Assembly (NCBI GenBank): GCA_900540595.1
Contig: UQGL01000011.1
Location: forward strand, 1 to 64,000
Source: an uncultured Oscillospiraceae bacterium
GTDB lineage: Bacteria > Bacillota > Clostridia > Oscillospirales > Ruminococcaceae
Direction: 5' to 3'
Length of the DNA stretch: 64,000 bases
The notes under the pieces were generated by a model that saw only the letters and a program-made list of their open reading frames with translations, was not told the origin of the DNA and ran no database searches. The position numbers and the translations under genes are program-made. Shown one piece after another: positions 27,073 through 43,715 of this stretch. The first letter of the stretch is position 1. Each line of letters starts with the position of its first letter.

Positions 27073-27624
27073 ATGAAGAAATTTGTTGAAAAAGATGTCG
27101 CAGAAAACCCGCTGTACCATGATACCTGGAAACTGTTGAAAAAATACCGCGATGTGGTGTGGAGCCTGGAAATTTCTGTCCAGCATGTGCGTTCCAAGTT
27201 TGAGATCGAATACGGCACATCCATCGAGGAATTTCTGGATTCCATCTATCTGGCCGGCGCCGATCTGAATGGGAGCGATATTGAACACCATGCTAAGTGC
27301 ATTGAGCGCAGCCACAAAATGCTGAAACTTTTGGATTCAGCAGTCGAATTGCTTCGTACCCGCCACAAGAACGGCGAGGCCTATTACTGGCTGCTTTACT
27401 ACTCCTTCCTCTCCCCGCAGCAACTCAAAAATGTGGAGGAGATCATCGAGAATTTGCGTCCGCATATCCGGGACATCTCATTCCGTACTTACTACCGCAG
27501 GCGCAGGGAAGCCATTGACGCACTCAGTTCCGTACTATGGGGGTACACCTCCAAAGACAGTTTGGATATGCTGGAACAGTTCTTTCCAGCGCCAAAACCA
27601 GATGAAAAGGCCAAGGGCAAATAA
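27073..27624 (+). CDS. ArpU-like putative transcriptional activator
   Basis: 183 aa, soluble, helical. The C-terminal half (YYWLLYYSFLSPQQLKNVEEI, then ISFRTYYRRRREAIDALSSV near 140-160) resembles the sigma-region-4-like fold of phage ArpU/RinA late regulators, where the SFRTYYR..REAI helix would contact DNA. AAGGAGG precedes the ATG. Its stop codon touches the first ATTGGC repeat of the promoter at 27624-27692, so it is the best local candidate for the activator of that promoter. The assignment is by pattern only. Confidence 0.6.
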   Translation: MKKFVEKDVAENPLYHDTWKLLKKYRDVVWSLEISVQHVRSKFEIEYGTSIEEFLDSIYLAGADLNGSDIEHHAKCIERSHKMLKLLDSAVELLRTRHKNGEAYYWLLYYSFLSPQQLKNVEEIIENLRPHIRDISFRTYYRRRREAIDALSSVLWGYTSKDSLDMLEQFFPAPKPDEKAKGK

Positions 27625-27692
27625 TTGGCAGAATACGGGAATGAAATTGGCGCATTCCTGCCCTTGAGCCGTAAATCCTGGTGTGCTAAACT
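27624..27692 (+). promoter_or_regulatory. T4SS module promoter with paired activator-like repeats
   Basis: ATTGGCA (27624-27630) and ATTGGCG (27646-27652) are direct repeats 22 bp apart. Then comes the box TGCCCTTGAGCCGTAAATCC (27659-27678) with -35 TTGAGC (27664-27669), a 17-nt spacer and -10 TAAACT (27687-27692). The same arrangement with identical spacings recurs at 43647-43715 before the Tad genes. The weak -35 and upstream repeats suggest activator dependence. Confidence 0.75.
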
Positions 27693-27738
27693 GAATATGC
27701 TCAAACTTGCACCCAAAACTGAATGCAGGCAGTGAACG

Positions 27739-27825
27739 GCACCTTTTTCAAGGTGCTTTTTTGCTGCCCTAATGACCGGCCGATTGGGGAGGGAGCCCGC
27801 ATCTATTACAAGAGCTGCGGGCTCC
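27739..27825 (+). terminator. Two terminator-like hairpins in the T4SS leader
   Basis: GCACCTT/AAGGTGC with TTTTTT (27739-27762), then GGAGCCCGC/GCGGGCTCC with TCTTTTG (27792-27830). Both lie between the promoter and the first T4SS gene, so transcription must pass them. Confidence 0.75.
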
Positions 27826-27873
27826 TCTTTTGTTTGAGTCCCGCATATTACATTTGGATTGGAGGTCCGAAAA

Positions 27874-28269
27874 TTGAAAAAACGCAAGATTCCTCACCAA
27901 AAGCGAAACGGCGATACCAGCCCTCCGCGCCGTTTTTCCATTGGCAGAATCGCTTATATGGCGTTTCTGTGTCCCACCGTCTCATTGATGTTCAGCCAGC
28001 CGGCCTTTGCCGCAACCGATGTTTGGACAAAGGCCACAGAAATCATGCAGGATGTCTACACGCAGATCCTCGCTATCTCCACGATTGCGGCCATTGTGAC
28101 CGCTTCGGTAGCATTGCTGCTCATGAATTTCTCCCGTTCTGGTAAAACGGTGGATGAAAGCAGAGCTTGGCTCAAACGAATTGTTATCACCTGGGCCATC
28201 TTAAACAGTCTGGGCTTTATCATGTCCTATATCGTCCCCTTCTTTGAGGGTGGTCAGTGGGCAGGTTGA
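27874..28269 (+). CDS. VirB2/TrbC-like pilin subunit of the T4SS (putative)
   Basis: About 131 aa from TTG at 27874, chosen because GGAGGT lies 8 nt upstream; TTG at 27859 overlaps that site. It has a long basic leader and hydrophobic signal segment with a likely cleavage after PAFA (near residue 46). A mature part of about 86 residues follows, with two membrane helices (about 60-82 and 100-122). Long signal plus two helices is the VirB2/TrbC plan, and it precedes the VirB6-like gene. The sequence itself is too divergent to be sure. Confidence 0.6.
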   Translation: MKKRKIPHQKRNGDTSPPRRFSIGRIAYMAFLCPTVSLMFSQPAFAATDVWTKATEIMQDVYTQILAISTIAAIVTASVALLLMNFSRSGKTVDESRAWLKRIVITWAILNSLGFIMSYIVPFFEGGQWAG

Positions 28270-28309
28270 TCGGCATCACATTGATACCCGACGAAAGGAG
28301 GCATGACCT

Positions 28310-29020
28310 ATGGGTATTCTGGACGGCATTGTTGAATGGATTGCAGAGCAGGTCATGGCGGGCCTTGACTTGATAACCACCTCGGTTTTGGGGGCACTGG
28401 GCTGCGATATGGCGGTATTTCTGCGCTACTTTCCCGCGGCCGAAACGATGTACAGCGTTTTTGTGGCACTGGGCATCGGTATCATTCTCCTTAACTGGGT
28501 GTGGCAGCTGTTCAAGAACTTTGGCCTGGGAGCCGGTATTGAAGCGGAAGACCCGCTCAAATTGAGCATCCGGTCCGTCATTTTTATTCTTTTAGCGTTC
28601 TTCTCCAATGAGATTGTCAGCATGATCCTGACCATCGGCGGCACACCGTATAACTGGATTATGGATTCGGAGCTGCCGGCACTCAGTTTTGCGGATTTCA
28701 ATTCTGTCATGCTGGTCATCATCGGGGTGTGCGCCAATGGGGCTGTGGCCCTTATCACTCTGATTTTAGTCATCATTCTGGCGTGGAACTACCTGAAGTT
28801 GCTGCTGGAAGCGGCAGAGCGATATGTATTGCTCGGCGTGCTGGTCTATACGGCTCCAGTAGCCTTTTCCATGGGGGCAAGCCAGACAACATCAAACATC
28901 TGGAAATCCTGGTGCCGGATGCTGGGCGGTCAGATTTTTCTTCTGCTGATGAACGCCTGGTGCCTGCGCCTGTTCACGAGCATGGTTGGTTCGTTTATCT
29001 CCAACCCGCTCTCTTTGTAA
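28310..29020 (+). CDS. VirB6/TrbL-like polytopic T4SS membrane protein
   Basis: 236 aa with about five to six membrane helices (near residues 42-62, 83-103, 128-155, 165-180 and 200-225). GTPYNW sits in the loop between the second and third. The position between a VirB2-like gene and the peptidase/VirB4 genes matches VirB6-like channel subunits of Firmicute conjugative elements. AAAGGAGG precedes the ATG. Topology and context carry the call; no catalytic motif exists for this family. Confidence 0.7.
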   Translation: MGILDGIVEWIAEQVMAGLDLITTSVLGALGCDMAVFLRYFPAAETMYSVFVALGIGIILLNWVWQLFKNFGLGAGIEAEDPLKLSIRSVIFILLAFFSNEIVSMILTIGGTPYNWIMDSELPALSFADFNSVMLVIIGVCANGAVALITLILVIILAWNYLKLLLEAAERYVLLGVLVYTAPVAFSMGASQTTSNIWKSWCRMLGGQIFLLLMNAWCLRLFTSMVGSFISNPLSL

Positions 29021-29031
29021 GGAGGGCCATT

Positions 29032-30024
29032 TTGAAAAGACTCAAGAAAATTTTGTTCCTTGCGCTGATGGTCGCAGCTCTCTCCTGTCTGTTCTGCCAG
29101 CCTGCTTTCGCTATTTCGGAGGAAGAAGTCCAGGCACAAGTGGACGCCGTAGGCAAAGAAGCCGTTTCGGGGAATGTGCTGATCTGGTTTATGTGCGCAA
29201 TCGGATTTCTTAAAGTATCACAGAAGATCGATTCTTTTATGGCAAGTCTGGGCGTCAATGTCGGCCATACCGGAGGCAGTATGCTGGCGGAGGCTATGAT
29301 TGCGGCCAGGGGATTCAGCGGATTTAAGAGCTTTGCCAGCAATCACTTTGCGGGAGGCCGCAGCAGTCATTCCTCCCATGTCCGTGCAAACGGTGGCGGA
29401 AAAGGCGGTGCTGGATTCGGCGCTGGTTTTGCCAGCGGTGGCTTGGCCGGCGTGATTAAAAGGAATGTTACCAATAATGCGGTCAAAACGGCCACAACGC
29501 CCCCGGATGCCAAGCCCTCCGGATTAAGTGGGCTGGTCGGCGGCGCTGCAGGCGGCATCGGTGGACATATCTACGCCTCCTCCGTAAGCAAAGGAGGCAA
29601 TTTTGCCAACAATGTCATAGGATCGGTTGCTACCGGGAGTATCACCCAGATGGGAACTATGACCGGGGATAAAGCTGTAGAAGCTCTGCATTCCTACATG
29701 GGTCATGCGGCATTGGAGCCCGGGGCCGAGAATATTCCCACTTATCAGAATGTGGAGATTGGCGGCGGCCGCATTACCGGCACAGAAGTCACTCCGGAGC
29801 ATCCAGAAGGCATCGCTTTTGGTATGTATCATGCAGACCAGTATGTGGCGCCGGAAGGCCAATACACAACCGTTCACGCTGTAGATGGTACTGCCTGGTA
29901 TAAGCAGTATGCTGCGGATGCGGTTGAAAAATCTCCCTATATGGCACCGGACGGCTCGATTGCCTATCACGAATCCATCGTGAAGAAACTGCCGCCTACT
30001 CCCAAAAGAAAGGACAAACTCTAA
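29032..30024 (+). CDS. Secreted/membrane T4SS accessory protein with Gly-rich region
   Basis: 330 aa from TTG at 29032, with GGAGGG 5 nt upstream; longer in-frame starts lie within the VirB6-like gene. A signal peptide ends near residue 27 (CQPAFA). One membrane helix follows around 45-65, then a Gly/Ser/Ala-rich stretch (about 105-195, AGFGAGFASGG) and a soluble C-terminus. It overlaps the next start by one base, so it belongs to the T4SS operon. I do not recognise the family. A Gly-rich stretch with a single anchor could line or span the cell wall. Confidence 0.65.
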   Translation: MKRLKKILFLALMVAALSCLFCQPAFAISEEEVQAQVDAVGKEAVSGNVLIWFMCAIGFLKVSQKIDSFMASLGVNVGHTGGSMLAEAMIAARGFSGFKSFASNHFAGGRSSHSSHVRANGGGKGGAGFGAGFASGGLAGVIKRNVTNNAVKTATTPPDAKPSGLSGLVGGAAGGIGGHIYASSVSKGGNFANNVIGSVATGSITQMGTMTGDKAVEALHSYMGHAALEPGAENIPTYQNVEIGGGRITGTEVTPEHPEGIAFGMYHADQYVAPEGQYTTVHAVDGTAWYKQYAADAVEKSPYMAPDGSIAYHESIVKKLPPTPKRKDKL

Positions 30025-31400
30025 TGGCTGAAGAACAAAAAAACAGCTCCGCCGAAACAGTAGATGCTGCGGCCTCTGCCGCACATACGGTCAAAGGCGC
30101 TATCAAAGCTGGCAAGGCCATCTCTGGAGCAGCGAAAGGCGCTGCCGCCGGCGGCCCCTATGGGGCTGTGGCTGGAGCCGTCTGGGCCGGCCGAAAGCAC
30201 ATCGGCAAAATCATTGCCATCATTGCCATTCTGCTTTTGCTGCCTGTCCTTTTCCTCCTGATGCTGCCCGGCCTGATTTTTGGAGGGCTGGTCAATGCCT
30301 TTTCACCAGCTGATCCTGACACGCCTATCCTCAACAGCGAAACCGCCATCGTAGAAAACGCCAACGACATTACCTTTGCCATCAACGCCATTCTGGGTGA
30401 GGCGCTGGATGATGTGATGGCCCGTATCGAAGTGGACTTTGCCTCTTCTGGCGCCGACAAAATGGAGGTCAAAAACCCCTATTCTTCCGGCCTGGTCTAC
30501 AACGCCAACCTCATCGTTTCACAGTATTGCGCTGCCCGGGATGAAGACTTTGAGAGCATTTCGCTGGATGACCTGTCCACTGTCCTGCGGGAGAACAAAG
30601 AGCATCTATACTCTTATACCAGTGTGCGGGAGAGCCGTGAGGTCACATCCGAAGATCCGGAGACCGGTGAGGAAACCATCTCCACCGAGATCTGGATGAT
30701 CTATACCATTCGCTACAACGGCGAGTCTTATCTTGCCGACCATGTTTTCGCGCTTACGGATGAGCAGAAAGAACTGGCGTCCGATTATGCCTCTAACCTA
30801 AGTCTCTTTTTAGGCGACGGCCTGCTGCAAAATGTGGACGAGTGGACAGGGAACAGTATCCCCTCCCTTGGAGATGTAACCTTTACCGACGGCGGGACCC
30901 CGGTTGTTTATTACAATCAGCTGGATGAACGCTATGCCAGTCAACCCTATGGCACCGATAACATCGGCGGCTATGGGTGCGGGCCCACCGCCATGGCAAT
31001 CGTGGTTTCCTCCCTTACGGACGATATGGTAGACCCGGTGGAAATGGCAAAGTGGTCATATGACAATGGCTATTGGTGCAAAAGCAGCGGCTCTTATCAC
31101 GCATTGATCCCTGCTGCTGCGGAGGAATGGGGCCTTCCGGTATCCGGCTGCACGACTTCCGAGCCCCAGCGGATTCTGGACGCTCTCGCAGATGGCAAGC
31201 TGGTCGTGGCAATTATGTCCGAAGGCCATTTTACCTCATCCGGCCACTTCATTGTTCTCCGTGGCGTAAAAGACGGCCAGATCATGGTGGCTGACCCGGC
31301 CAGTTACAAGCGAAGCGGGCAGTTGTGGGATCTGTCCATCATCTTAAATGAAGCAAGCCGCCGTGCGGCAGCAGGCGGTCCTTTCTGGATTATTGGCTGA
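30024..31400 (+). CDS. Membrane-anchored C39-like cysteine peptidase of the T4SS
   Basis: 458 aa. A cytoplasmic Ala/Gly-rich N-terminus is followed by a membrane helix (about 70-95), an extracellular VirB8-like or stalk region, then a papain-fold domain from about 300. That domain has C319 (YGCGPTAMA), H408 (GHFIVLRG) and a DPAS Asp near 424, the Peptidase_C39_2 pattern. In most Gram-positive conjugation systems this place is taken by a peptidoglycan hydrolase (lysozyme plus NlpC/P60), so a wall-remodelling or protein-processing role is inferred. The ATG overlaps the previous stop. Confidence 0.75.
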   Translation: MAEEQKNSSAETVDAAASAAHTVKGAIKAGKAISGAAKGAAAGGPYGAVAGAVWAGRKHIGKIIAIIAILLLLPVLFLLMLPGLIFGGLVNAFSPADPDTPILNSETAIVENANDITFAINAILGEALDDVMARIEVDFASSGADKMEVKNPYSSGLVYNANLIVSQYCAARDEDFESISLDDLSTVLRENKEHLYSYTSVRESREVTSEDPETGEETISTEIWMIYTIRYNGESYLADHVFALTDEQKELASDYASNLSLFLGDGLLQNVDEWTGNSIPSLGDVTFTDGGTPVVYYNQLDERYASQPYGTDNIGGYGCGPTAMAIVVSSLTDDMVDPVEMAKWSYDNGYWCKSSGSYHALIPAAAEEWGLPVSGCTTSEPQRILDALADGKLVVAIMSEGHFTSSGHFIVLRGVKDGQIMVADPASYKRSGQLWDLSIILNEASRRAAAGGPFWIIG

Positions 31401-31436
31401 CCGCACCGCACCCCGGCATCAGAAACGAGGTAATAC

Positions 31437-34400
31437 ATGAGCAACAAGAATGACCATGATATTTATATCATACCGCCGAACTTCATAGAAACAGGCACTT
31501 TTTTTGGCGGTATGTTCCGTGCGCGGAATGTGATTGAAGCCGGCATCCTGGCACTTGCCATTGGGACGCCGGTTTTTTTGTGCCTTCCATTTGGGCTGAC
31601 CGCCCGCATTATTGCTTTATGCCTGACTGCGCTCCCGGTGGCATTGGTTGCCCTCATTGGCATTTCAGGGGAAAGCCTCTCGCAGTTTCTGGTCACTTTT
31701 CTGAAATACCTGCGGAATCGCCGCATTGTCGGCGGTGACGGTGAACAGCCCGGCGAAAAAACGGGGACCTCCAAATCAGCCGGCAAGCATTTCAAACAGA
31801 AGCCTCCAAAGGAGAGAAAGCCCAAGGCGTCGAAGCGCCGGCGGTCTGGTGAAGCAGATTTCCCAGCTGAGTTTGATGAAGTCCGTGGATATGAGATCCG
31901 CGAAAAACTCCGGCCCAAGAAAAACACCAGGAAGGAACGGCCTGTCAAGGCCAATAAGGCGAAAAAGAAAGCAAAGAAGCGACCTGAAAAAGAGCGGATG
32001 CCTAAACGCCCAGCCCATATCAAGGAGGAAAAGCCTCCCTGCGTCAATCCGGTGGCAGACTATCTGCCCATTGAGAAGATCGTCAACGGCATTATCTACA
32101 CGAAAGACCACCAATTTGTCAAGGTGGTTGAGGTGGTCCCCATCAACTTCATGCTGCGGAGCGCACGGGAACAGAGAAATATTATCTACTCTTTCGTCTC
32201 ATACCTAAAAATCAGTCCTGTTAAATTGCAGATCAAAGTGCTTACCCGGCGTGCCGACATCAACCGCCACCTGGACACAGTACGCCGTGAAATGGCGCAG
32301 GAGGACAATGAGCAGTGCCGCTTGATGCAAGAGGACTACTTGGACTTTGTTCAACAGGTCGGCTCCCATGAGGCGGTTACACGACGCTTCTTTTTGATTT
32401 TTGAGTATGAGCCTTGGAACAACACACGGCGCTCCGAACAGGAAGATGAGGCAATCCAATCTCTCCAAAGTGCTGTCCACACGGCATCCAATTACCTGCG
32501 TCAATGCGGCAACGAGGTCGTTGTCCACGAAAATGAGGACGAATTTACCGTAGATGTTTTCTATAATTTGTTGTGCCGAAATGAAAGTGCAGTCAAGCCC
32601 CTGTCGGTACGGGCACAGGAAATTGTGGCACAGTATCTCCAAAAGGGACGGGAGGGTGAGATTGACCGCATCCCGGCAGTTGAATTTGCCGCGCCCAAAA
32701 GCATCGACTTCACCCATGGACGGTATCTCTGCATAGACGGGCTGTACTATACTTATCTGCTCGTCCCATCAGATGGTTACAAAACCCAGGTGCCCGCAGG
32801 CTGGTTGAGTTTGATCGTCAATGCCGGTGATGGTATTGACCTCGATATGTTTCTTTCGCGTCAACCCAAAGAGCGCATTATTCAGCGGGTCGGCCAGCAG
32901 CTCCGCATCAACCGGTCAAAAATCAAGGATGCCAGCGACACGAACACGGACTTCGATGATATAGACGGCGCTATTCGGAGCGGTTATTTTCTGAAGGAGG
33001 GCCTTGCGAACAACGAAGATTTCTATTATCTCAACTTGTTGATTACTGTGACTGCCCCTTCTGTGGAGGACCTGGAGTGGAAGGCCAGCGAAATAAAAAA
33101 GCTCCTGCTTTCGCAGGATATGGATGTCTGCAACTGCCATTTTCGGGAGGAGCAGGCATTTTGTTCTGCCCTCCCGCTGGTTTCCATGGAAAAGGGACTG
33201 TTCGAGCGTGGTAAGCGCAACCTGTTGACTGGAGGCGCGGCCAGCTGCTATCCGTTCACTTCATTTGAGATGTGCGACGACAACGGAATCCTTCTGGGGG
33301 TCAACAAATATAACAGTTCCCTCATCATCGTGGATATTTTCAACTCTGCGATTTACAAGAACGCCAATATGGCGATCCTGGGTACCAGCGGCGCAGGCAA
33401 GACCTTTACGATGCAGCTCATGGCGTTAAGAATGAGGCGGAAAAACATTCCCGTTTTCATCATTGCGCCTCTGAAAGGGCACGAATTCCACCGTGCCTGT
33501 GCCAATGTAGGCGGGGAGTTTATCCAGATTTCCCCGGCCAGCCCGCACTGCATCAATGTGATGGAGATCCGCAAGGTGGATCGGTCGGTCAGTGAGCTTC
33601 TGGACGGGCCGGGAATCCAGCTCTCCGACCTGGCCGCCAAAATCCAGCAACTCCACATATTCTTCAGTCTGTTGATACCCGATATGTCTCACGAGGAACG
33701 GCAGCTGTTGGATGAGGCTCTGATCCGCACCTACAATTCCAAAGGTATCACCCATGACAACGCCTCATTGGAAGACCCGGCCAATCCGGGCTGCTACCGG
33801 GAGATGCCGGTGCTGGGCGACTTGTATGAGATTTTGAAGGCCGCCCCGGAAACCACTCGCATGGCCCATATCCTCAACCGTCTGGTGAATGGCTCCGCCA
33901 GTACCTTTAACAAGCAGACCAATGTGCGGCTGGATAATAAGTACACCGTACTGGATATTTCCTCGCTTACTGGTGATTTGCTGACTGTGGGGATGTTCGT
34001 GGCCCTTGATTTCGTTTGGGACCGCGCCAAAGCTGACCGCACCGAGGAAAAAGCCATTTTTATTGACGAGTGCTGGCAGCTTCTTTCCGGCGCAGGCGCC
34101 ACGGGTACCCGGCTGGCCGGCGATTTCGTTTTGGAAATTTTCAAAACCGTCCGCGGCTTCGGTGGGTCAGCGATCTGTGCCAGCCAGGACCTTAACGACT
34201 TTTTCAATCTGGACGAAGGGCGTTTCGGAAAAGGCATCATCAACAACAGCAAGACTAAAATCATTCTCAATCTGGAGGATGACGAAGCGGAGCGTGTCCA
34301 GGACACCCTCCATCTCTCTGACGCAGAAACGATGGAGGTCACACACTTTGAGCGCGGCAGCGGCCTGATCTCTACCAATAATAACAATATCATGGTGGAG

Positions 34401-34502
34401 TTCAAGGCCAGCCCATTGGAAAAAGACCTTATAACCACAGACCGCAGGGAGCTGCGGGAGCTTTTGGAGCGCAAGCGCCAAGAACAAGCTGATTCCGCTT
34501 AA
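31437..34502 (+). CDS. virB4: PrgI-VirB4 fusion, conjugative ATPase
   Basis: 1021 aa. Residues 1-100 match a PrgI/VirB3-like domain with two close membrane helices (about 35-75). A Lys/Arg-rich linker (100-200) leads to a VirB4 ATPase: Walker A GTSGAGKT at 649-656 and Walker B FIDECWQLL near 875. VirB4 energises assembly and substrate transfer of the T4SS at the inner membrane face. The fusion of the VirB3-type and VirB4-type parts gives extra length. GAGGTAATAC precedes the ATG. It is the last gene before the palindromic insert at 34518. Confidence 0.95.
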   Translation: MSNKNDHDIYIIPPNFIETGTFFGGMFRARNVIEAGILALAIGTPVFLCLPFGLTARIIALCLTALPVALVALIGISGESLSQFLVTFLKYLRNRRIVGGDGEQPGEKTGTSKSAGKHFKQKPPKERKPKASKRRRSGEADFPAEFDEVRGYEIREKLRPKKNTRKERPVKANKAKKKAKKRPEKERMPKRPAHIKEEKPPCVNPVADYLPIEKIVNGIIYTKDHQFVKVVEVVPINFMLRSAREQRNIIYSFVSYLKISPVKLQIKVLTRRADINRHLDTVRREMAQEDNEQCRLMQEDYLDFVQQVGSHEAVTRRFFLIFEYEPWNNTRRSEQEDEAIQSLQSAVHTASNYLRQCGNEVVVHENEDEFTVDVFYNLLCRNESAVKPLSVRAQEIVAQYLQKGREGEIDRIPAVEFAAPKSIDFTHGRYLCIDGLYYTYLLVPSDGYKTQVPAGWLSLIVNAGDGIDLDMFLSRQPKERIIQRVGQQLRINRSKIKDASDTNTDFDDIDGAIRSGYFLKEGLANNEDFYYLNLLITVTAPSVEDLEWKASEIKKLLLSQDMDVCNCHFREEQAFCSALPLVSMEKGLFERGKRNLLTGGAASCYPFTSFEMCDDNGILLGVNKYNSSLIIVDIFNSAIYKNANMAILGTSGAGKTFTMQLMALRMRRKNIPVFIIAPLKGHEFHRACANVGGEFIQISPASPHCINVMEIRKVDRSVSELLDGPGIQLSDLAAKIQQLHIFFSLLIPDMSHEERQLLDEALIRTYNSKGITHDNASLEDPANPGCYREMPVLGDLYEILKAAPETTRMAHILNRLVNGSASTFNKQTNVRLDNKYTVLDISSLTGDLLTVGMFVALDFVWDRAKADRTEEKAIFIDECWQLLSGAGATGTRLAGDFVLEIFKTVRGFGGSAICASQDLNDFFNLDEGRFGKGIINNSKTKIILNLEDDEAERVQDTLHLSDAETMEVTHFERGSGLISTNNNNIMVEFKASPLEKDLITTDRRELRELLERKRQEQADSA

Positions 34503-34517
34503 AAGGCATTTTCTCTA

Positions 34518-34615
34518 GGGGCTGTTGCAAAATGTAAAATTTCTACATGATGTTGTTTATCCTTACATAGCAATACTCAATATCATGTATCAAAAATTCA
34601 TTTTGCAACAGCCCC
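34518..34615. repeat. 98-bp palindromic MITE-like element with IS6-like ends
   Basis: Terminal inverted repeats GGGGCTGTTGCAAAATG (34518-34534) and CATTTTGCAACAGCCCC (34599-34615) are perfect; inner arms ACATGAT / ATCATGT also pair. The ends resemble IS6-family termini (GG...CTGTTGCAAA). No transposase and no obvious 8-bp target duplication (flanks TTTCTCTA and TTTATTGC). As RNA it would fold into one long hairpin followed by TTTATT. It lies 16 nt after the virB4 stop. Confidence 0.7.
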
Positions 34616-34771
34616 TTTATTGCGCGGAGTAGTGTAAAGAACATGGTTGGATGCTTTACCAACAGACGGCGGGGCAGTACCGTCCTCCGCAACCATTTAG
34701 AATTTTATATGAGGTGAGTCCAATGTATCCGACAATAAAGTAATCAAACAAAGAATTGAGAGGTGATATAA

Positions 34772-36289: not shown

Positions 36290-36952
36290 TTGGATCGAAA
36301 ACTAATATCCCACCGCATTGGAAGCATTCTCGACGATATATCCCGTCTGAGTAATGCGCTGTACGCGCTGGACACCACCGACATCCAGCGTTACCCCGAC
36401 AACTATGAAACGCTTTCCATAGATGCCGCTTTACGGGCAGAGCGGATTGCCTGCCGGCTGCGGCATCTGATTTATTCCAGTACAACCATCCGCAAAGGTG
36501 ACTATCTCAAATCCGCCGGTGCAACGCACGGCATCACTGTCAACTGCGAGAACAGGGTGCTGGAGGTGACGCTGCCCTGTTTGCTGCCAAAGCGCAAACA
36601 GCGGCAAAGCGATGAGTTCCTGTTGGACCCGCTCTATTTTGTCCTTGATCAATACGCCAGAGAACACCCACTTCCGTATTACCGCGATTGCGTTGTCTGC
36701 TTCGCCCAGGTCTATGACCGGGCACTTCCCGACAGGAGGATACGCGATTACGATAATTTGTCGGAAAAGCAATTACTGGATCTTCTCTCTTCCTTTGTGA
36801 TGGCTGATGATACCGGCCTGTTGTGCGACGCCTATAACACGGCTGAACTGGGCGACCAGGATTGCACAAAAATCTATATCATGGAGAAGCAGCGTTTTCC
36901 GCAATGGCTGACAGAGCATAAAACGAGTCTAAAATCCATCTCGGATTTTTGA
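36290..36952 (+). CDS. DUF6100-like conserved element protein
   Basis: 220 aa, soluble, from TTG at 36290 immediately after the previous stop, with AGCAGGAGG upstream. It has an N-terminal helical half (residues 1-65) and a C-terminal alpha/beta half. I recall similar proteins as DUF6100 next to DUF5697 in conjugative elements of Clostridia. No catalytic motif is visible. Co-transcription with its neighbours is evident from the zero-gap spacing. Confidence 0.65.
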   Translation: MDRKLISHRIGSILDDISRLSNALYALDTTDIQRYPDNYETLSIDAALRAERIACRLRHLIYSSTTIRKGDYLKSAGATHGITVNCENRVLEVTLPCLLPKRKQRQSDEFLLDPLYFVLDQYAREHPLPYYRDCVVCFAQVYDRALPDRRIRDYDNLSEKQLLDLLSSFVMADDTGLLCDAYNTAELGDQDCTKIYIMEKQRFPQWLTEHKTSLKSISDF

Positions 36953-36999
36953 CCATTTTGGGCCTTCTCCGGCCCGACATTCAGTGAAGCGGCTGAAAC

Positions 37000-37020
37000 G
37001 CCCGATTTTCCGGGCTTTTT
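37000..37020 (+). terminator. Terminator-like hairpin after the DUF6100-like gene
   Basis: GCCCG ATTTTC CGGGC followed by TTTTT, about 50 nt past the stop. Another small stem (GGGCC TTCTC GGCCC) precedes it. Confidence 0.6.
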
Positions 37021-37039
37021 CCCCTCATGGGGAGGCCCA

Positions 37040-37073
37040 TTTTTACCGAAGTCCTCAGTCATTACGGTAAAAA
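37040..37073. other. Inverted repeat upstream of the wHTH gene
   Basis: TTTTTACCG (37040-37048) and CGGTAAAAA (37065-37073), perfect 9-bp arms with a 16-nt spacer, 28 nt before a TTG start with a strong ribosome site. Candidate operator for the gene that follows. Confidence 0.5.
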
Positions 37074-37225
37074 TCCTGTGCTTTCAAGGGAGGTGACTAC
37101 TTGGGAAAAGCACCAACTATTTTCCACAGCCGGATACGCTTCCGTTCCGGCTTTTATCGCTGACCGCTATTTCGGGAGAGTTCCCCACCAGCCAGCTCAA
37201 CCGCCTTCCCGCCAGTCCTTACTAC

Positions 37226-38224
37226 TTGGAGGCGGTCGTGACTGCGCTCAAAAAGGCCGGACTGCTGCGCACCTACTACCGGGACCGGCTCCGGGGCTAT
37301 CGGCTGGGGATCAAAGCCAAGTCAGCTCTGCTGGACGGATGGCCCGAGCGTTTTACATTCTGCCTTACAGGAGACGCAGAAACCAACCGGCTCAAAAGCG
37401 AAGCAAACCGGAGGTTTCGGCTCCACCGCCTCGCGGAAACCTATATCACTATAGGCAATGCCGGGGTACTGCTCTACCCGGATGAAAAGCCGAAGGTCTT
37501 TGCCCAGACCGGTTTTGGCGGCGAAGCTGTAACATATCCTGTGTTTTACAGTTCACGCGAAGTCAAGGAATTGGGGGCTGATGCCACCCAGATTCGAAGC
37601 TCCCGCTTCGCAGGGGTGCTGCTGGCCCCCACCGGCATCTTTGTGACCTACAATAGCGGGGGCGCTCTGATGAAGTGGCGCTACAAATCCGAACTGCGGG
37701 TAAAAACGCTCCTCTGGAACATTCTATGCCAGCAGCGTCTGGCCCAGCAGTACCGTGTCGAGCAGGTACATGGACTGGTATTGGGGGACAGCATGGATCT
37801 GGCCTACCAGATACTCACCAGTACCGGCGGGGCCAAGCATGACTACTTCATGCTGGACGGCAGCTACGACCACTTTTATTTCCTAACCAATGACCATCAG
37901 GGAGAGGTGATACTGGCGTTACTGTGTGACCCTGTGAAAACCGCGGAACTTGACCGCATTCTGTCACAGGGCCTCTCCGCCGGCAATCCCGGCAGTGCCA
38001 TGGAGCAGGATGCCGCAGAGCCGGATGGAACGCCGGTGCTGTTCGGTTACTTCTGCGATCTGCCCCGGATCGTGCGCTTTAACACCTCCCTCGAACTGAT
38101 GGAACGCCCCGGTACACTGATCTGCTTTGATTTTCAAGCAGATGTGCTGCGCCGCTACTGCGGTGACCGGGTACACCTGCAAACCATTGACTTTACAAAA
38201 TTCGAGGGGAGGTTGTTCCCATAA
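37226..38224 (+). CDS. Winged-helix element protein, N-terminal frameshift suspected
   Basis: 332 aa from the first in-frame TTG, but coding character begins earlier. The same frame from about 37136 reads LPFRLLSLTAISGEFPTSQL, a helix-turn-helix-like start of the domain. A good ribosome site (GGGAGGTGACTAC) precedes TTG at 37101 in another frame, which gives MGKAPTIFHSRIRFRSGFYR and then stops. A small deletion near 37155 would explain both. The N-terminal part resembles replication-relaxation-type winged helices; the rest is a conserved alpha/beta region ending in FEGRLFP. Its stop overlaps the proposed VirD4 start. Confidence 0.6.
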   Translation: MEAVVTALKKAGLLRTYYRDRLRGYRLGIKAKSALLDGWPERFTFCLTGDAETNRLKSEANRRFRLHRLAETYITIGNAGVLLYPDEKPKVFAQTGFGGEAVTYPVFYSSREVKELGADATQIRSSRFAGVLLAPTGIFVTYNSGGALMKWRYKSELRVKTLLWNILCQQRLAQQYRVEQVHGLVLGDSMDLAYQILTSTGGAKHDYFMLDGSYDHFYFLTNDHQGEVILALLCDPVKTAELDRILSQGLSAGNPGSAMEQDAAEPDGTPVLFGYFCDLPRIVRFNTSLELMERPGTLICFDFQADVLRRYCGDRVHLQTIDFTKFEGRLFP

Positions 38225-40158
38225 ACAAAAAGAAACTGATCATAGGCCTGGCAGCAGCACCGGCCGCCGCATTTGCGATTCTATACGCAGGCGGTTTCCT
38301 GGCGCAGCTGTTTGGCAATTATGCAGTATGGAAACAGGGTGGCGGCATCCCCGGAGACGGAACTTCTCCGGCGATGGCATCACCCGATTTTTTTACCTGT
38401 CTGGCCTCCGTATTTCGTCCGCCCTACGGAGTGTACGGTGTCCTGATCTGCATCGGCCTGTTGGCAGTCCTGCTGCTCATGGTCATGCGCATGGGCTACA
38501 GCGATACCGGCGAATATGATACTGACCGGAATTTCATTTACTCGGCCAAGGGCACCTACGGTACCTCCGGCTGGATGAGCCGCAAGGAAATGGCTGGTGT
38601 GTTGGATCTGGTGCCTGACCTGCGCAAGCATAAAGGCGTTGTACTGGGAATGCTGGACAACAAGGCTGTCTGTATTCCCGAAAATCCCCATATCAACGGC
38701 AATCTGGCTGTGTATGGCTCCAGCGGCAGCATGAAAACCCGGTCCTTTTGCATGAATCGTATCCTTCAGGCGGCGGTCCGCGGAGAATCCCTGATTATTT
38801 CAGATCCGAAAAGTGAGCTCTACGAAAAATCCAGCGAGTATCTGCGGGATCAGGGGTACTGTGTCAAGGTGTTCAATTTGGTCAATCCGGAAAACTCGGA
38901 CAGTTGGAACTGCCTTTCCGAAGTGGAGGGGCAGGAACTGATGGCGCAGCTTTTTGTAGATGTCATCATTAAGAACACCATCAACAACGGCAAGGGCGAC
39001 CATTTCTGGGATTCCTGCGAGATGAACTTGCTGAAAGCCCTCGTCCTCTATGTGGACCAGAGTTATGCAGAGCAAAACCGCAATATCGGAGAGGTGTACC
39101 GGCTGCTGACTTTAAGCGGCGAGTCCGATTTGGACAGCCTGTTTGAGAACTTGCCGCCCACCCATCCGGCCAAAGCGCCATACAGCTTGTATAAGCAGGC
39201 CAGCGATACAGTCCGCAGCGGCGTCATCATCGGCCTCGGCTCCCGTCTGCAGGTGTTCCAGTCGGAGCTGATTAAGAAGATCACCACCCGGGATGAAATT
39301 GACTTGGATCTGCCCGGCCAGGAGCGGTGCGCCTACTTCCTTGTTACCAGCGACCAGGACAGCACCTTTGACTTTCTGGCAAGCCTGTTCCTGTCCTTCT
39401 GCTTCATCAAGCTGGTGCGGTATGCAGACAAGAACTGCGAAGGAGGCAAGCTGCCGGTGCCGGTGCATGTCCTGGGTGAAGAATTAACAGCCTGCGGCAC
39501 CATTCCAGACCTCTCCCGCCGGTTAAGCGTCATTCGTTCAAGAAATATCTCTATGAGCTGTGTGTTTCAGAACTTGGCGGGCTTGCAGAATCGGTATCCT
39601 CTCAATCTCTGGCAGGAAATTCTGGGCAACTGCGACGCGCAGTTGTTTCTGGGCTGCACGGATGAATTGACGGCGGAGTTTATTTCTTCCCGCACGGGAC
39701 TGGCTTCTGTGTCGGTATCCAGCAAATCCAAGCAGCTGGGTACCTGGCGTATCTCCAACTACACGCCGGAATACCGGGAAACCTCTGGTGTCGGCAAGCG
39801 TCCTGTCCTCACCCCGGACGAAGTTCTGCGGCTGCCTATCAAGCAGGCGCTGGTCATCATCCGGGGGCAAAAAGTTCTCAAGGTAGACAAAATGGACTAT
39901 TCCAAACATCCGGAGGCATCCAAGCTCCGTTCCTGCAAGGCATCCGCCCACATCCCCGAATGGCGCAGGCTGGAACAGGAGCAACCGAAACCCTCTGCGG
40001 CACAGCCAAAGCCGCAGGCCCCCGCGCCTAAAAAGCCAGTGAAGAAAAAGCCGAAAGCGGCCAGCACATCTACCGGCACCAAGCAGACCGCAGCCGTTCC
40101 AACCGCAGAGGCTCCGAATGGCATCATCACGACAGATAAGGACTCGATCCTTTCTTAA
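38221..40158 (+). CDS. virD4: VirD4/TraG-type coupling protein, possible ATA start
   Basis: T4SS coupling ATPase that links the relaxase-DNA complex to the channel. Walker A-like GSSGSMKT begins near residue 166 counted from 38221; the TraG/VirD4 core (DPKSELYE, LGEELTACGTIPDLS) follows. The C-terminus is a Pro/Lys/Ala-rich tail of about 60 residues. The first in-frame ATG is 38374 (594 aa), but upstream codons from 38221 (INKKKLIIGLAAAPAAAFAI) encode the expected first membrane helix. GAGGGGAGG lies at ideal distance before ATA at 38221, which overlaps the previous stop as ATAA. I therefore extend it, noting 38374 as the conservative start. Confidence 0.9.
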   Translation: MNKKKLIIGLAAAPAAAFAILYAGGFLAQLFGNYAVWKQGGGIPGDGTSPAMASPDFFTCLASVFRPPYGVYGVLICIGLLAVLLLMVMRMGYSDTGEYDTDRNFIYSAKGTYGTSGWMSRKEMAGVLDLVPDLRKHKGVVLGMLDNKAVCIPENPHINGNLAVYGSSGSMKTRSFCMNRILQAAVRGESLIISDPKSELYEKSSEYLRDQGYCVKVFNLVNPENSDSWNCLSEVEGQELMAQLFVDVIIKNTINNGKGDHFWDSCEMNLLKALVLYVDQSYAEQNRNIGEVYRLLTLSGESDLDSLFENLPPTHPAKAPYSLYKQASDTVRSGVIIGLGSRLQVFQSELIKKITTRDEIDLDLPGQERCAYFLVTSDQDSTFDFLASLFLSFCFIKLVRYADKNCEGGKLPVPVHVLGEELTACGTIPDLSRRLSVIRSRNISMSCVFQNLAGLQNRYPLNLWQEILGNCDAQLFLGCTDELTAEFISSRTGLASVSVSSKSKQLGTWRISNYTPEYRETSGVGKRPVLTPDEVLRLPIKQALVIIRGQKVLKVDKMDYSKHPEASKLRSCKASAHIPEWRRLEQEQPKPSAAQPKPQAPAPKKPVKKKPKAASTSTGTKQTAAVPTAEAPNGIITTDKDSILS

Positions 40159-40182
40159 TACAAAACATAGGAGGTTAATTTT

Positions 40183-41778
40183 ATGGCAACCAAGAAAAAA
40201 GTATTGCTGGAGCAGGAAACTCCTGTTCCTGAAAACACCGCCCCCGCGGACGGTACCATTTCTTCCGCTGGCCCCCCGGCTGATGCGGCGGCGCCGCCTG
40301 ACAGTGACGATTTGAGTGCGCTGCTGGCCTCTATGGATCAGACCAATGACAGCGCCTCTACGGATCAATCTGATGGCGACGCCACTTTGGAAGGCTCTGA
40401 CCCTCCCCTTGAGTTTATGGAAACGGAGGCGTCTGATGAAGCTGCCCCCGAGGGTGACGGCACGGCCTCTGGCGCCCCTTCCGATTCGGATGAGCCTGCC
40501 GGATCGGCGGCCGGTGAGGATGGCGACGGTGAGGAAGAGACTCCTTCCAATTTGTCTGCTGAAGGTGCAGATGGCATCCCGGCGGAGACGGTTTCCGAAA
40601 CTGCTGGGGAGCCGGCTCCCCCCAAGCCCAAGCGGGCACCCCGGCGGAAAAAGGCGGCACCTGTGGAAGATCCCGTACATGGCGAGAATGAGGACTCTGC
40701 GGAGGCTCCGGCTGCTGAAGAGCAGGCTGTGGAATCTTCCGCCTCTGTTGAGAATACGGCGCCGCCTGATGAGGGAGAAACACCCATTTCAGAGGATACC
40801 GCTCCCCAAGAGGAGGCGCCGGTAGATACTGCGTCTGCTCTGCGCCGGACCGCCGTAACACACCGCAGTGACGCCTCTATCCTGACCATCCGCAGTCGTG
40901 AAGAGGTGGAAACACAGGAAGACCGCGAGGATGTCATTTGGCACGAGATCCACAACGCCTACCGCACCCGCCGCATCCTCACAGGGCAGCTGGGCGGCAT
41001 TGAGCAGCTGGACAACCGCAAAACTGTGGCCGTAGTGGATTACAAGGGCTTCCGCATCATTATCCCCATCAAGGAGATGATGATCAATCTGGGCCGCAGC
41101 CCTTCCGGCCAGGAGTATGCCGACCTGATGCTGCGTCAAAACAAGATTTTAGGGAATATGCTGGGGGCGGACATTGACTTTGTGGTGCGCGGCATCGACT
41201 CCAAGACCCGCAGCGTTGTCGCAAGCCGCCGTGAGGCTATGATGCGGAAGCGTCAGACCTTTTATTTCGATTTGGACGCCGAGGGGAAGTACCGCATCTA
41301 CGAGGGGCGTATTGTTCAGGCCCGGGTCATCGCTGTTGCGGAGAAGGTCATCCGCGTCGAGGTATTCGGCGTTGAAACCTCAATTCTGGCCCGTGATTTG
41401 GCTTGGGACTGGATCGGCGATGCCCACGAGCGTTTCTCCGTGGGCGATGAAGTGCTGGTCCGCATTCTCAATGTGCGGCGCAACAGCCTTGAAGACCTCG
41501 GAATCCGTGCCGACATCAAGAGCACATCTGAAAACACCGACCGGGACAATCTCCAGAAGTGCCGAATCCAGGGCAAGTATGCCGGAAAAGTGACCGATGT
41601 GCATAAGGGCGTGGTCTATGTCCGGCTTGCCAATGGCGTCAATGCGGTGGCTCATTCCTGCTATGACTACCGGATGCCCGGAAAGAAGGATGATGTATCC
41701 TTTGCCGTCACCCATTTGGATGTGGAGCGCGGTATCGCTCTTGGAATTATCACCCGTATCATCCGGCAGAACCTGTAA
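40183..41778 (+). CDS. S1-domain RNA-binding protein with long acidic disordered N-terminus
   Basis: 531 aa. Residues 1-225 are low-complexity and strongly acidic (Asp, Glu, Ala, Pro, Ser). The folded C-terminal part carries an S1-type beta barrel around 374-432 (YEGRIVQARVIAVAEKVIRVEVFGVE) and a second S1-like unit from about 455 (GKYAGKVTDVHKGVVYVRLANG). AGGAGG precedes the ATG 24 nt after virD4. S1 proteins bind single-stranded RNA; in a conjugative element this one could act on mRNA translation or termination, but nothing proves it. Confidence 0.75.
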   Translation: MATKKKVLLEQETPVPENTAPADGTISSAGPPADAAAPPDSDDLSALLASMDQTNDSASTDQSDGDATLEGSDPPLEFMETEASDEAAPEGDGTASGAPSDSDEPAGSAAGEDGDGEEETPSNLSAEGADGIPAETVSETAGEPAPPKPKRAPRRKKAAPVEDPVHGENEDSAEAPAAEEQAVESSASVENTAPPDEGETPISEDTAPQEEAPVDTASALRRTAVTHRSDASILTIRSREEVETQEDREDVIWHEIHNAYRTRRILTGQLGGIEQLDNRKTVAVVDYKGFRIIIPIKEMMINLGRSPSGQEYADLMLRQNKILGNMLGADIDFVVRGIDSKTRSVVASRREAMMRKRQTFYFDLDAEGKYRIYEGRIVQARVIAVAEKVIRVEVFGVETSILARDLAWDWIGDAHERFSVGDEVLVRILNVRRNSLEDLGIRADIKSTSENTDRDNLQKCRIQGKYAGKVTDVHKGVVYVRLANGVNAVAHSCYDYRMPGKKDDVSFAVTHLDVERGIALGIITRIIRQNL

Positions 41779-41784
41779 CCCGAA

Positions 41785-41832
41785 AACCGCCTGGGAAGTA
41801 TCAAATAGCTGCTTCTCAGGCGGTTGTTTTTA
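41785..41832 (+). terminator. Terminator after the S1-domain gene
   Basis: AACCGCCTG (41785-41793) pairs with CAGGCGGTT (41817-41825), followed by GTTTTTATT. It ends the T4SS block before the AbiE cargo. Confidence 0.85.
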
Positions 41833-41911
41833 TTGCGATGTCATCCGGTTTCGATGCTGAAAAATCAGTATAAATTTTTTGGCTATGGCAATCCTAATTA
41901 CGAAATGCTCA

Positions 41912-41950
41912 TTGCATTTTTGTAACCAATTATATATAATATTGGTTACA
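41912..41950 (+). promoter_or_regulatory. AbiE promoter with operator around the -10
   Basis: TTGCAT (41912-41917), 17 nt, TATAAT (41935-41940). A perfect 10-bp inverted repeat TGTAACCAAT / ATTGGTTACA (41921-41930, 41941-41950) flanks and covers the -10. Type IV AbiEi antitoxins are known to repress their own promoter by binding inverted repeats, so this is the likely AbiEi site. Confidence 0.8.
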
Positions 41951-41967
41951 GAAAGGAGGCCAAGCAT

Positions 41968-42588
41968 ATGAGCAACAGTTACATGGAAAAAATCCGTGAA
42001 CGAATTATGCAGGCTCCGGATGGCAGCGTATTTGTCAATTCAGATTTTGCTGATATTACAGACACCAACACAATCAAGCAAATTATTAGCCGTCTAATCA
42101 AAGAAGGAACTTTACGCCGCATTATCCGTGGTGTATTTGAAAAGCCCAAATACAGTAAACTCTTGCAGGAATATGTTGCTGCTGACCCAAATGAGATTGC
42201 CAATGCTCTTGCAAGGTGTTATCACTGGACCATAGCGCCTTGTGGGGATACTGCTCTGAATAAGTTGGGATTGTCCACACAGGTTACTGCTGTGTGGTCG
42301 TATATCAGTGATGGCCCCTACAAAACATATGAATGGGATAAGACAAAAATCGAATTTAAGCATCGGACTAATAAAGAAATAACGGGCTTATCTCCTACAA
42401 CAATTTTAGTAATTCAGGCTCTAAAAACTCTTGGCAAAGAAAACACTGATTCAAAGGTCATACGGATCCTCTCTCACCGGCTGAACACCGAGGAAAAAGC
42501 GGCATTACTTCGAGAGGGCTCTGAAGCAACAGACTGGGTTTATAATGTGATAAGGGAAATTTGCAAAGGAGAAAAAGAGAATGATTGA
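41968..42588 (+). CDS. AbiEi-like antitoxin / autorepressor (DUF6088 type)
   Basis: 206 aa. An N-terminal winged helix (residues 1-60: VFVNSDFADITDTNTIKQII then LIKEGTLRRIIRGVF) is followed by the AbiEi-type C-terminal antitoxin domain (HWTIAPCGDTALNKLGLS). It overlaps the toxin gene by 8 nt. In type IV systems the antitoxin does not bind the toxin; it opposes its effect and represses the operon. The pair is distinctly AT-richer than flanking genes, a sign of separate acquisition. AAAGGAGG precedes the ATG. Confidence 0.85.
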   Translation: MSNSYMEKIRERIMQAPDGSVFVNSDFADITDTNTIKQIISRLIKEGTLRRIIRGVFEKPKYSKLLQEYVAADPNEIANALARCYHWTIAPCGDTALNKLGLSTQVTAVWSYISDGPYKTYEWDKTKIEFKHRTNKEITGLSPTTILVIQALKTLGKENTDSKVIRILSHRLNTEEKAALLREGSEATDWVYNVIREICKGEKEND

Positions 42589-43582
42589 AATCGCCAAACT
42601 GTCTGCTGATGATCGGCGGGAATTATTTCATAATACGGCTGCTAAAATAGGGCTAAACGATGCAATTATCGAAAAGGATTTTTGGGTGTGTTTGACGCTG
42701 GACTATCTATTTCATCGCTCCCCGTGGAAAGAAGCAGTCACTTTCAAAGGGGGCACCAGCCTGTCAAAAGGATACCATCTGATTAGTCGTTTTTCTGAGG
42801 ACATTGATTTGATTTTGGACTGGCGTGTACTGGGGTATCGCATAGATGAACCCTGGGAGAAACGCTCTAACACCAAACAGGATGCGTTCAATAAAGAGGC
42901 AAATCGCAGGGCAGAAATTTTTCTGTCGGAAGATTTTTGCCCACGGATGCAAAAGGATCTTTCTGTCGAATTGGGGACTTCGGCCAACCTTTACATAGAT
43001 GAAGAAGATCCTCAAACGGTTATCTTTGCTTATCCAAATCTGTTTACAGATACCTCCACGCTACAGGTCATCCGCTTGGAAATCGGTGCGCTGGCTGCAT
43101 GGACGCCAGCCGATATGGTAGATATCACACCTTATACTGCAGAGCAGTATCCCCAGTTATTCAAGCAGAGAACTGTATCAGTTCTGACCGTAGCTCCAGA
43201 GCGGACCTTTTGGGAAAAGGCCACCATCCTACATCATGAAGCAAACCGACCTGAACATCTGTTGATGCCTCAACGGTATTCCCGACATTATTATGATTTG
43301 TACTGTATGGCGATCAGTCCCGTGAAGGAGAAAGCATTTGTTCATCTGGATCTTCTGCAAAAGGTAGTCAATTTCAAAATGAAATTCTACCCACGGGCAT
43401 GGGCAAAATATCCAGAAGCTGTCCCTGCCACCTTGAAACTGCTCCCTCCTTCATATCGACTCGATGCCCTTTGGACGGACTATACCGCCATGCAAAATAT
43501 GCTTTATGGAGAAATCCCATCCTTTGAAAAGATTATGAGTGTCATCAGTGACCTGGAGAACGAGATACACGCACTGCAATGA
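42581..43582 (+). CDS. AbiEii-like nucleotidyltransferase toxin
   Basis: 333 aa. The DNA polymerase-beta-type nucleotidyltransferase signature is present: KGGTSLSKG around 57-63 and SEDIDLIL with Asp at 74 and 76. The rest matches the AbiEii/AbiGii family (ERTFWEKATILHHEA near 205-220). AbiEii-type toxins transfer nucleotides to RNA targets such as tRNA acceptor ends and cause growth arrest or abortive infection. Paired with the antitoxin it would stabilise the element and may block phage. It lies between the T4SS and Tad modules. Confidence 0.9.
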   Translation: MIEIAKLSADDRRELFHNTAAKIGLNDAIIEKDFWVCLTLDYLFHRSPWKEAVTFKGGTSLSKGYHLISRFSEDIDLILDWRVLGYRIDEPWEKRSNTKQDAFNKEANRRAEIFLSEDFCPRMQKDLSVELGTSANLYIDEEDPQTVIFAYPNLFTDTSTLQVIRLEIGALAAWTPADMVDITPYTAEQYPQLFKQRTVSVLTVAPERTFWEKATILHHEANRPEHLLMPQRYSRHYYDLYCMAISPVKEKAFVHLDLLQKVVNFKMKFYPRAWAKYPEAVPATLKLLPPSYRLDALWTDYTAMQNMLYGEIPSFEKIMSVISDLENEIHALQ

Positions 43583-43646
43583 AGCCTTGCTTTGCGTAAC
43601 ATATTTTAATTCAGAAGATTTCGTCCTAAATTCAGTTGAACACAAG

Positions 43647-43715
43647 ATTGGCACAGAATTGTCCTTACATTGGCACAGCCTTGCCCTTGAGCCGTAAATC
43701 CATATCTGTTATACT
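43647..43715 (+). promoter_or_regulatory. Tad module promoter, same architecture as the T4SS promoter
   Basis: ATTGGCACAG at 43647-43656 and 43669-43678 (22 bp apart), then the box TGCCCTTGAGCCGTAAATCC (43682-43701) identical over 20 nt to the one at 27659. Its -35 is TTGAGC (43687-43692), the spacer 17 nt, the -10 TATACT (43710-43715). The distance from the second repeat to the -35 is the same as at 27646. No gene lies in 43583-43783. Confidence 0.8.

Follow-up and report, generated by a model that had tools for sequence, protein, structure and literature searches.

The closest described systems to the locus analysed here are those of the phage regulators RinA, Alt and Ltr, in which a small gene lies directly upstream of a multi-repeat promoter driving a long late operon (PMC13123087, PMC5601072). 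According to the phi13 paper, Ltr is an activator for which direct repeats are required, Alt sites lie at -76 to -32, and a reporter with only 50 base pairs (bp) past the start is still Ltr-dependent (PMC13123087). The Ltr/RinA/ArpU regulators are described as small basic proteins of ∼130–140 amino acids (aa), and they target packaging and lysis genes. The late switch of phage lambda has the regulator Q, the promoter PR' with a -10-like element and the Q-binding site QBE (PMC6606751). Its parts likewise follow one another as regulator gene, promoter, leader terminator and late operon. In conAn of pLS20 and canT of Tn916, conjugation genes stand behind terminators that need read-through, which depends on leader RNA (for canT, a 452-bp fragment was used), either alone or together with a protein that the operon itself encodes (PMC8955417, PMC11658703).

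This study concerns a stretch of 64,000 nucleotides (nt) from an uncultured Oscillospiraceae bacterium (GenBank assembly GCA_900540595.1, contig UQGL01000011.1, positions 1 to 64,000; hereafter the window), in which a conjugative element begins at ∼25.9 kb. To our knowledge, the timing of transfer genes in large conjugative elements of gut Clostridia has been little studied. Two promoter sites of this element, one before the type IV secretion system (T4SS) genes and one before the Tad pilus genes, are probably its paired late promoters, switched by an ArpU-like protein (P0001) encoded directly before the first site, a reading to which we give a probability of roughly 0.7. The features concerned are as follows.

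27073-27624, + strand: ArpU-like regulator P0001, 183 aa, the proposed activator at site 1 and site 2, with a stop codon that overlaps the first repeat
27622-27665, + strand: site 1, 11-bp phased direct-repeat array, predicted regulator binding sites, with units at 27622, 27633, 27644 and 27655 (TAATTGGCAGA / ATACGGGAATG / AAATTGGCGCA / TTCCTGCCCTT)
27659-27678, + strand: site 1, 20-nt box, the same as in site 2, with the weak -35 TTGAGC (27664-27669) and, in the spacer, GTAAATCC
27684-27692, + strand: site 1, extended -10 TGCTAAACT (TGC TAAACT)
27696-27701, + strand: site 1, -10-like hexamer TATGCT, beginning 9 nt downstream of the -10 start
27738-27762, + strand: site 1, predicted leader intrinsic terminator, stem GGCACCTT/AAGGTGCT, then a T run
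27791-27835, + strand: site 1, second terminator-like hairpin, with a stem of 11 bp and a T-rich stretch behind it (-23.9 kcal/mol, z -4.5)
27859-41778, + strand: transfer operon, presumably transcribed from site 1, with a small open reading frame (ORF; 27859-28269), a C39 peptidase protein, VirB4, DUF5697, DUF6100, VirD4 and an S1-domain protein
43645-43688, + strand: site 2, 11-bp phased direct-repeat array, with units at 43645, 43656, 43667 and 43678 (AGATTGGCACA / GAATTGTCCTT / ACATTGGCACA / GCCTTGCCCTT)
43682-43701, + strand: site 2, 20-nt box, the same as in site 1, with the weak -35 TTGAGC (43687-43692)
43707-43715, + strand: site 2, extended -10 TGTTATACT (TGT TATACT)
43719-43724, + strand: site 2, -10-like hexamer TACAGT, beginning 9 nt downstream of the -10 start
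43739-43769, + strand: site 2, predicted leader intrinsic terminator, 11-bp stem, then a T run (51-nt leader, -24.3 kcal/mol, z -4.4)
43784-54073, + strand: pilus operon, presumably transcribed from site 2, with a DUF4320 protein, DUF6550, a type IV leader peptidase, RcpC, a T2SSE/TadA-like ATPase and later genes

The initial annotation of this DNA had claimed that the same promoter parts recur with identical spacings at 27624-27692 and 43647-43715 and share a box of 20 identical nt (27659-27678 and 43682-43701), and a direct check of the sequence confirmed both statements. The two sites agree at 51 of 76 positions in a single register, compared with 23, 24 and 26 of 76 for flanks in the same register, and a 21-mer form of the box (up to 3 mismatches) has two copies in the window and none in 100 shuffles. 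The paired ATTGGC half alone is unremarkable, with seven matches in the window at up to 2 mismatches against 9.9 expected, of which the two sites are the only ones with no mismatches. Paired direct repeats had also been described; these are present, but do not stand alone, being the best-preserved units of the 11-bp phased array. The -35 is weak, as had been noted, but drifts among relatives, and the -10 proved to be an extended -10. The -10-like hexamer that follows it and the intrinsic terminator downstream had not been described at either site. A composite scan of both strands of the window for an extended -10, upstream 11/22-bp periodicity and a terminator 50-95 nt downstream returned 27687 and 43710 together with 43719 (the -10-like element that belongs to site 2), and returned nothing from ten shuffled windows. 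A variant that combined the periodicity with the -10-like hexamer and reported the best hairpin returned both sites and a weak match at 1232 on the minus strand (hairpin -2.8 kcal/mol). A sigma-54 promoter (TTGGCAC..TTGC) was ruled out, as the GG-GC spacing is 9 and not the 10 of the consensus, and the sigma-A extended -10 recurs.

Relatives were gathered by searching with P0001 itself, and hence free of motif bias: matches were obtained in 20 of 391 genomes of the class at E ≤ 1e-12, in 22 of 391 at E ≤ 1e-8 in another draw that overlapped the first to a large extent, and in 16 of 200 genomes of a single family at E ≤ 1e-10. A shared-8-mer filter took the 47 downstream regions to 42, among which close relatives remain; taken out were L206 (a fragment with internal stops), L208 (identical to the region in the window) and five near-duplicates. 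The control for terminators used 41 regions, one being too short, and counts of the array, hexamer and -35 used 36 (the window and 35 found by protein), the -10 score of six being too low. Genomes G155 and G995 are one assembly, as their coordinates agree.

An array and extended -10 directly follow most P0001 homologs, down to ∼25–30% identity, the exceptions by eye being L189, L192, L194 and L212. Within the 65 nt upstream of the -10 of the 36 regions, self-similarity at lag 11 was 0.443, against 0.265 when shuffled (z 16.8), and lag 22 gave z 12.4, with every other lag from 4 to 24 at or below z 3.1. TGGC motifs are present in 22 of 36 regions; relative to the -10 start, their usual positions are -61, -50 and -39, and 36 of 57 occurrences are in one phase. 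By eye, the repeat unit differs between clades, being TTGGC near the window, CCGAC in L209 and L213, TTAGAC in L228, L229 and L233, and AATTGG-like in L190. Clade-specific units at a constant 11-bp period are what would be expected if the adjacent protein reads the repeat. In L190 (G556:C49), approximately a dozen AATTGG-like units of 11-bp period were seen by eye from ∼10 to 150 nt past the stop codon of the ArpU-like gene, and the lag-11 identity of this region (0.72) is the highest of the 36.

The extended -10 is the common promoter part across these relatives, and is of the host type in most. GTAAATCC in the spacer is common to the TTGGC clade, with the array itself upstream of the -35. 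At site 2 the -35 reads TTTCGC or TTTCCC in several relatives and TTGAGC in others, and is unrecognisable by eye in L181. A hexamer agreeing with TTGACA in at least 4 of its 6 positions, spaced by 16-18 nt, was found in 20 of 36 regions, compared with 12.5% in shuffles, and the weak -35 is therefore considered real on the whole. A -10-like hexamer ([TC]AnnnT) stands at +8 or +9 from the -10 start in 27 of 36 regions (shuffles: mean 2.8, maximum 11 in 1000); some of the nine regions lacking it look like wrong automatic choices of the -10, which the count includes.

Searching for the spaced motif in related elements, as the initial annotation had suggested, showed that the paired sites recur, including in relatives found by gene. 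The first site was found in all 11 genomes searched by motif, and 10 carry a pair on the same contig, 14.2 to 64.8 kb apart. In the eleventh, G148, the other motif match (3 mismatches, on a different contig) looks like chance. The nearest genome compared, G001, shares 46% of sampled words with the window and carries the two sites at a distance of 16.1 kb; in G146, another element holds a pair 12.5 kb apart. A looser motif gave matches in 12 of 14 genomes, the sites in the unmatched G780 and G936 having diverged. It had been proposed that elements keeping the genes and losing the repeats would speak against a shared switch; instead, the gene-based searches recover the repeats in most relatives. 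The 16-mer CCCTTGAGCCGTAAAT was found in 114 stretches of the genome contigs searched and occurs 117 times over all loci then gathered, with two upstream TTGGC in 20 (two in the window, 18 in Clostridia loci, where L017 repeats the site of L063) and no such pair in the other 97, mostly from other phyla. No exact copy of the 20-mer box was found in IMG/VR.

Each site is followed by a predicted intrinsic terminator, with the T-tract 72 nt (site 1) and 57 nt (site 2) after the -10 start. With an automated rule that accepts a T-tract 35-125 nt after the -10, a terminator was found in 30 of 42 regions, and 26 of these 30 T-tracts lie at 63-79 nt. In the control run, 30 of 41 regions had a terminator, compared with a mean of 2.6 and a maximum of 6 over 20 rounds of shuffling, and of the remaining extended -10 matches in the window, 60 in number, none had one, although these include coding matches and most need not be promoters. 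The predicted starts are separated from the terminator stems by ∼39 nt at site 1 and ∼17 nt at site 2, leaders shorter than a classical riboswitch would need. At gathering thresholds, the only Rfam match in the whole window was a 16S ribosomal RNA (rRNA) fragment, and the leaders therefore contain none of the known riboswitches or antiterminator RNAs.

An outer stem enclosing the hairpin and the U-tract, with its 5' arm in the leader and its 3' arm past the T-tract, was observed in L218, L209, L224-L227 and the window (27730-27770); examples are GGGCAGC/GCTGCCC (L218), GCAGGAATG/CATTCCTGC and GCGGGAG/CTCCCGC. Across the 30 terminator-positive regions, its mean pairing score (z 4.25) exceeded that of every one of 500 arm swaps, but the best swap yielded as many strong pairs as were observed (12 of 30), and with an alternative cut the mean of 300 swaps was as high as that observed. 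L224 was left out of the leader folding, as its stretch ended before the T-tract. This outer stem may be regarded as a lead only.

The second site is accompanied by a pilus module, of either the Tad or the sortase type. In the Vescimonas plasmid NZ_AP023417 the gene order of the window is shared up to the S1 gene; the second site follows, and a SpaA/SpaH/class C sortase pilus replaces Tad.

NZ_AP023417.1 (L207), 34925-35060 and 35255-40519: conjugative-type gene block in which a sortase-assembled SpaA/SpaH pilus stands behind a promoter and hairpin of this kind

This second site has repeats, TGCTATACT, TACAGT and, by eye, a hairpin AGACCGCCG..CGGCGGTCT with a short T run. In G780 cargo has been inserted between the S1 gene and site 2, yet site 2 is still directly before the DUF4320 gene (54% identical), and its hairpin lies 115 nt past the -10. 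G882, G968, G993 and G1038 likewise have DUF4320 behind site 2. No second site was found in three elements in which pilus genes were not detected: no DUF4320, sortase-pilus proteins or second site were found within the 20 kb fetched from G975 and G1030, and G148 has no second site and no DUF4320 match, the absence of a pilus being judged there by DUF4320 alone. G885, G936 and G1021 were left out of this comparison, as the site or the S1 gene is near a contig end or outside the stretch.

P0001 matches the profiles phrog_1558 (unknown function; E 1.1e-10) and phrog_36 (transcription regulator; E 0.0027), and had no NCBIfam or Pfam match. Its structure model is all-alpha, with a predicted local distance difference test score of 78, and its top viral fold matches include DUF1492, transcriptional regulator and sigma-70 region 4 proteins, none at E ≤ 0.001. 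A profile search of PDB sequences listed three chains, none of them a Q protein. Among predicted proteins, which come without genomic context, 2969 relatives were found at E ≤ 0.001 (the best 120 of the 2969 are listed); patterns of close relatives matched three records in a phage collection, four in plasmids and none in IMG/VR. A search with TIGR01637 matched 17 of 150 genomes, none above the cut-off, and of the 8 of 18 loci inspected by eye, five (L236, L237, L241, L246, L253) have a -10 and a T-run hairpin after the gene. Other candidate regulators on the element are the following.

25920-27056, + strand: winged-helix/helix-turn-helix (HTH) protein of 378 aa, the partner encoded upstream of the ArpU-like protein, with weak MarR and DnaD-like matches; a homolog (59%) lies directly upstream of the ArpU-like gene in NZ_AP023417
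55761-56336 and 62058-62597: genes for sigma-70-like factors

In comparison with the phage systems, P0001 and most of its relatives share the position directly upstream of the promoter that they would control, and several imperfect direct repeats precede the start. The rinA and alt genes sit before repeats of the same 11-bp period (PMC13123087). At 183 aa P0001 differs from these regulators in size, and its presumed targets are T4SS and pilus operons, with two target sites per element; for this reason it is not classed as a phage late regulator, but only as working like one. In phi11, rinA is followed by AAATTGGCAGT/AAAGTGGCAGT, by TATTAT and, 97 nt past the -10 and before terS, by a hairpin with TTTTTT; this terminator-like hairpin between the promoter region and terS is at L234:2340-2490. 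From 129 RinA loci in IMG/VR 80 were kept, and among the four distinct regions shown the hairpin is present in three and not clear in L313. Downstream of alt in TP901-1 are AAATTGGGATA/AAAACGACACG/AAAAAGGCACG/AAATTGGAGTG, TGATATACT, a -10-like TATTAT at +8 and two tRNA genes, with a hairpin further on. Unlike conAn and canT, neither site has a long structured leader RNA before its first terminator, and the protein gene is upstream of the promoter.

The proposal that one element-encoded activator serves both weak promoters is supported by comparison of relatives, and of the candidates named in the initial annotation P0001 is favoured, most of its homologs' genes directly preceding an array and extended -10; on sequence comparison and on analogy with the phage regulators, it likely activates both. 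P0001, its gene being the last before the transfer operon, would bind the 11-bp phased TTGGC-type repeats and recruit host sigma-A polymerase to the poor -35 and extended -10. Activation at site 1 would turn on the transfer (T4SS) operon, and activation in trans at site 2 the Tad pilus operon 16 kb away, so that channel and pilus come on together, after the early genes. Starts are predicted near 27699 and 43722, with the T run of the intrinsic terminator ∼44–65 nt later. Because each transcript would meet this terminator, full expression of the operons would also need read-through, either by sheer promoter strength or by a modified polymerase; the leader terminators thus imply more than simple activation.

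Several observations weigh against P0001 as the switch of paired late promoters. Neither by sequence nor by profile is it significantly similar to RinA or Alt, and its link to them is therefore by anatomy; no PDB fold matches it at E ≤ 0.001, which also leaves homology to Q-type proteins without a match. It is not basic (pI, the isoelectric point, 7.07), unlike the published description of Ltr, as is likewise the case for Alt (pI 6.33). The automated rule missed 12 of 42 regions, and no terminator was seen by eye in L189, L192, L194, L211 and L212; in the other misses (L187, L210, L213, L215, L217, L229, L231) a hairpin was seen by eye and left out of the counts. The second-site hairpin of NZ_AP023417 has an energy of -5.2 kcal/mol and fails the automatic rule, and with so poor a score and a short T run the terminator there may be weak. 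On contig C63 of G150 a copy of the second site diverges inside the terminator and has no DUF4320 match, contig C109 of this genome having an intact second site. The sigma genes at 55761 and 62058 are present in 17 and 15 of 21 element-carrying genomes, with P0001 in all 21; 11 of these genomes were chosen by P0001 itself and 10 by the site motif, and among the latter the counts are 10, 9 and 10 for the 55761 gene, the 62058 gene and P0001. Co-occurrence consequently does not separate P0001 from the sigma genes, which also travel with the element.

That one of these two sigma factors reads both promoters is nevertheless very unlikely, since the extended -10 is of the host type in most relatives and the sites adjoin the ArpU-like gene rather than the sigma genes. 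Factors of the extracytoplasmic function (ECF) type also read other motifs. The arrays could instead be operators of a repressor holding both operons off, for instance the winged-helix protein at 25920, which resembles a DNA-binding protein and is encoded next door; this, too, is unlikely, as an array upstream of the -35 is in the typical position for an activator, and the broad association is with ArpU-like genes, whose phage parallels are activators. A copied segment might explain the 20-nt identity, but chance or a recent functionless duplication of a promoter can be practically dismissed, with both sites kept separately and with diverged sequence in many elements, and none found in the ten shuffled windows. 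The leader terminators may serve as insulators or leak-stoppers: they would halt transcription entering site 1 from the early operon and site 2 from the transfer operon, as well as low basal initiation, and would be overrun once the promoter is activated and strong. This is a possibility that we hold tentatively: the ORFs upstream of each site run in the same direction as the site, but an insulator would be expected upstream of the promoter rather than 57-79 nt past the -10, and both the presence and the distance of the terminator recur across very diverse families.

Processive antitermination of the Q type, in which the channel and pilus genes would be reached only by modified polymerase, is compatible with activation by P0001, and is a possible but doubtful addition to it. 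The near-fixed distance of the terminator at both sites and in most relatives agrees with it, as do the hexamer at +8/+9 (a candidate pause element in the initially transcribed region, judged as a sequence element), the predicted hairpins between promoter and late genes, the phi11 hairpin before terS and the short leaders. The succession of Q gene, PR' and the terminator tR' in lambda is also the order seen here. However, Q of lambda binds between the -35 and -10, and the array here is upstream of the -35; the -10-like element of lambda is 3-4 nt further from the -10, and none was seen at +8/+9 in phi11. The lambda terminator also lies ∼194 nt after the start, compared with the ∼44–65 nt predicted here. 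P0001 has no fold match to Q, the alt promoter of TP901-1 precedes its two tRNA genes without a close terminator by eye, and many of the Alt relatives shown resemble TP901-1 by eye, although L379, L390 and L396 do have a close hairpin. Since the dependence on Ltr of the short phi13 reporter argues for control of initiation there (PMC13123087), activation is ranked above antitermination. In the open-licence literature of PubMed Central (PMC), nothing was found joining ArpU with antitermination and, by title, nothing on such control by ArpU of conjugation or of a Tad pilus in conjugative elements.

A phage-style late switch common to channel and pilus would provide a concrete regulator, operator and promoter for these elements, and predicts that the channel and the attachment organelle form one regulon in which the type of pilus is exchangeable. 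The recurring leader terminator raises the question of whether RinA/Ltr regulators only recruit polymerase or also confer resistance to terminators, and the similar arrangement downstream of rinA makes this directly testable in phi11, a well-studied phage. It may be speculated, as an idea that we consider less probable than not, that ArpU/RinA/Ltr regulators are promoter-loaded antiterminators and counterparts of lambda Q, which would bind the array, act at the -10-like pause and pass the leader terminator; conjugative elements would have adopted this switch, with a second copy before an exchangeable Tad or sortase pilus, as one late regulon.

The conjugative element comprises, in order, the HTH protein, P0001, site 1, the T4SS genes up to the S1-domain protein, an AbiEii-type toxin-antitoxin pair, site 2 and the Tad pilus genes. 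The left part of the window looks chromosomal, as it opens with a 16S rRNA gene (Rfam match 1-898) followed by a sigma-70 gene and a HATPase_c_2 gene, a pair that we take to recall sigF/spoIIAB. The S1-domain RNA-binding protein (40183-41778), which ends the transfer operon, was found in all six of the longer stretches of relatives that reach that point, and might have the leader RNAs as a target. The toxin-antitoxin pair (DUF6088 and AbiEii-type) is at 41968-43582, after this gene and before site 2. An ORF at 34898-35611, between the VirB4 and DUF5697 genes, has a partial match to the PA0069-family of radical SAM proteins, far under the curated cut-off.

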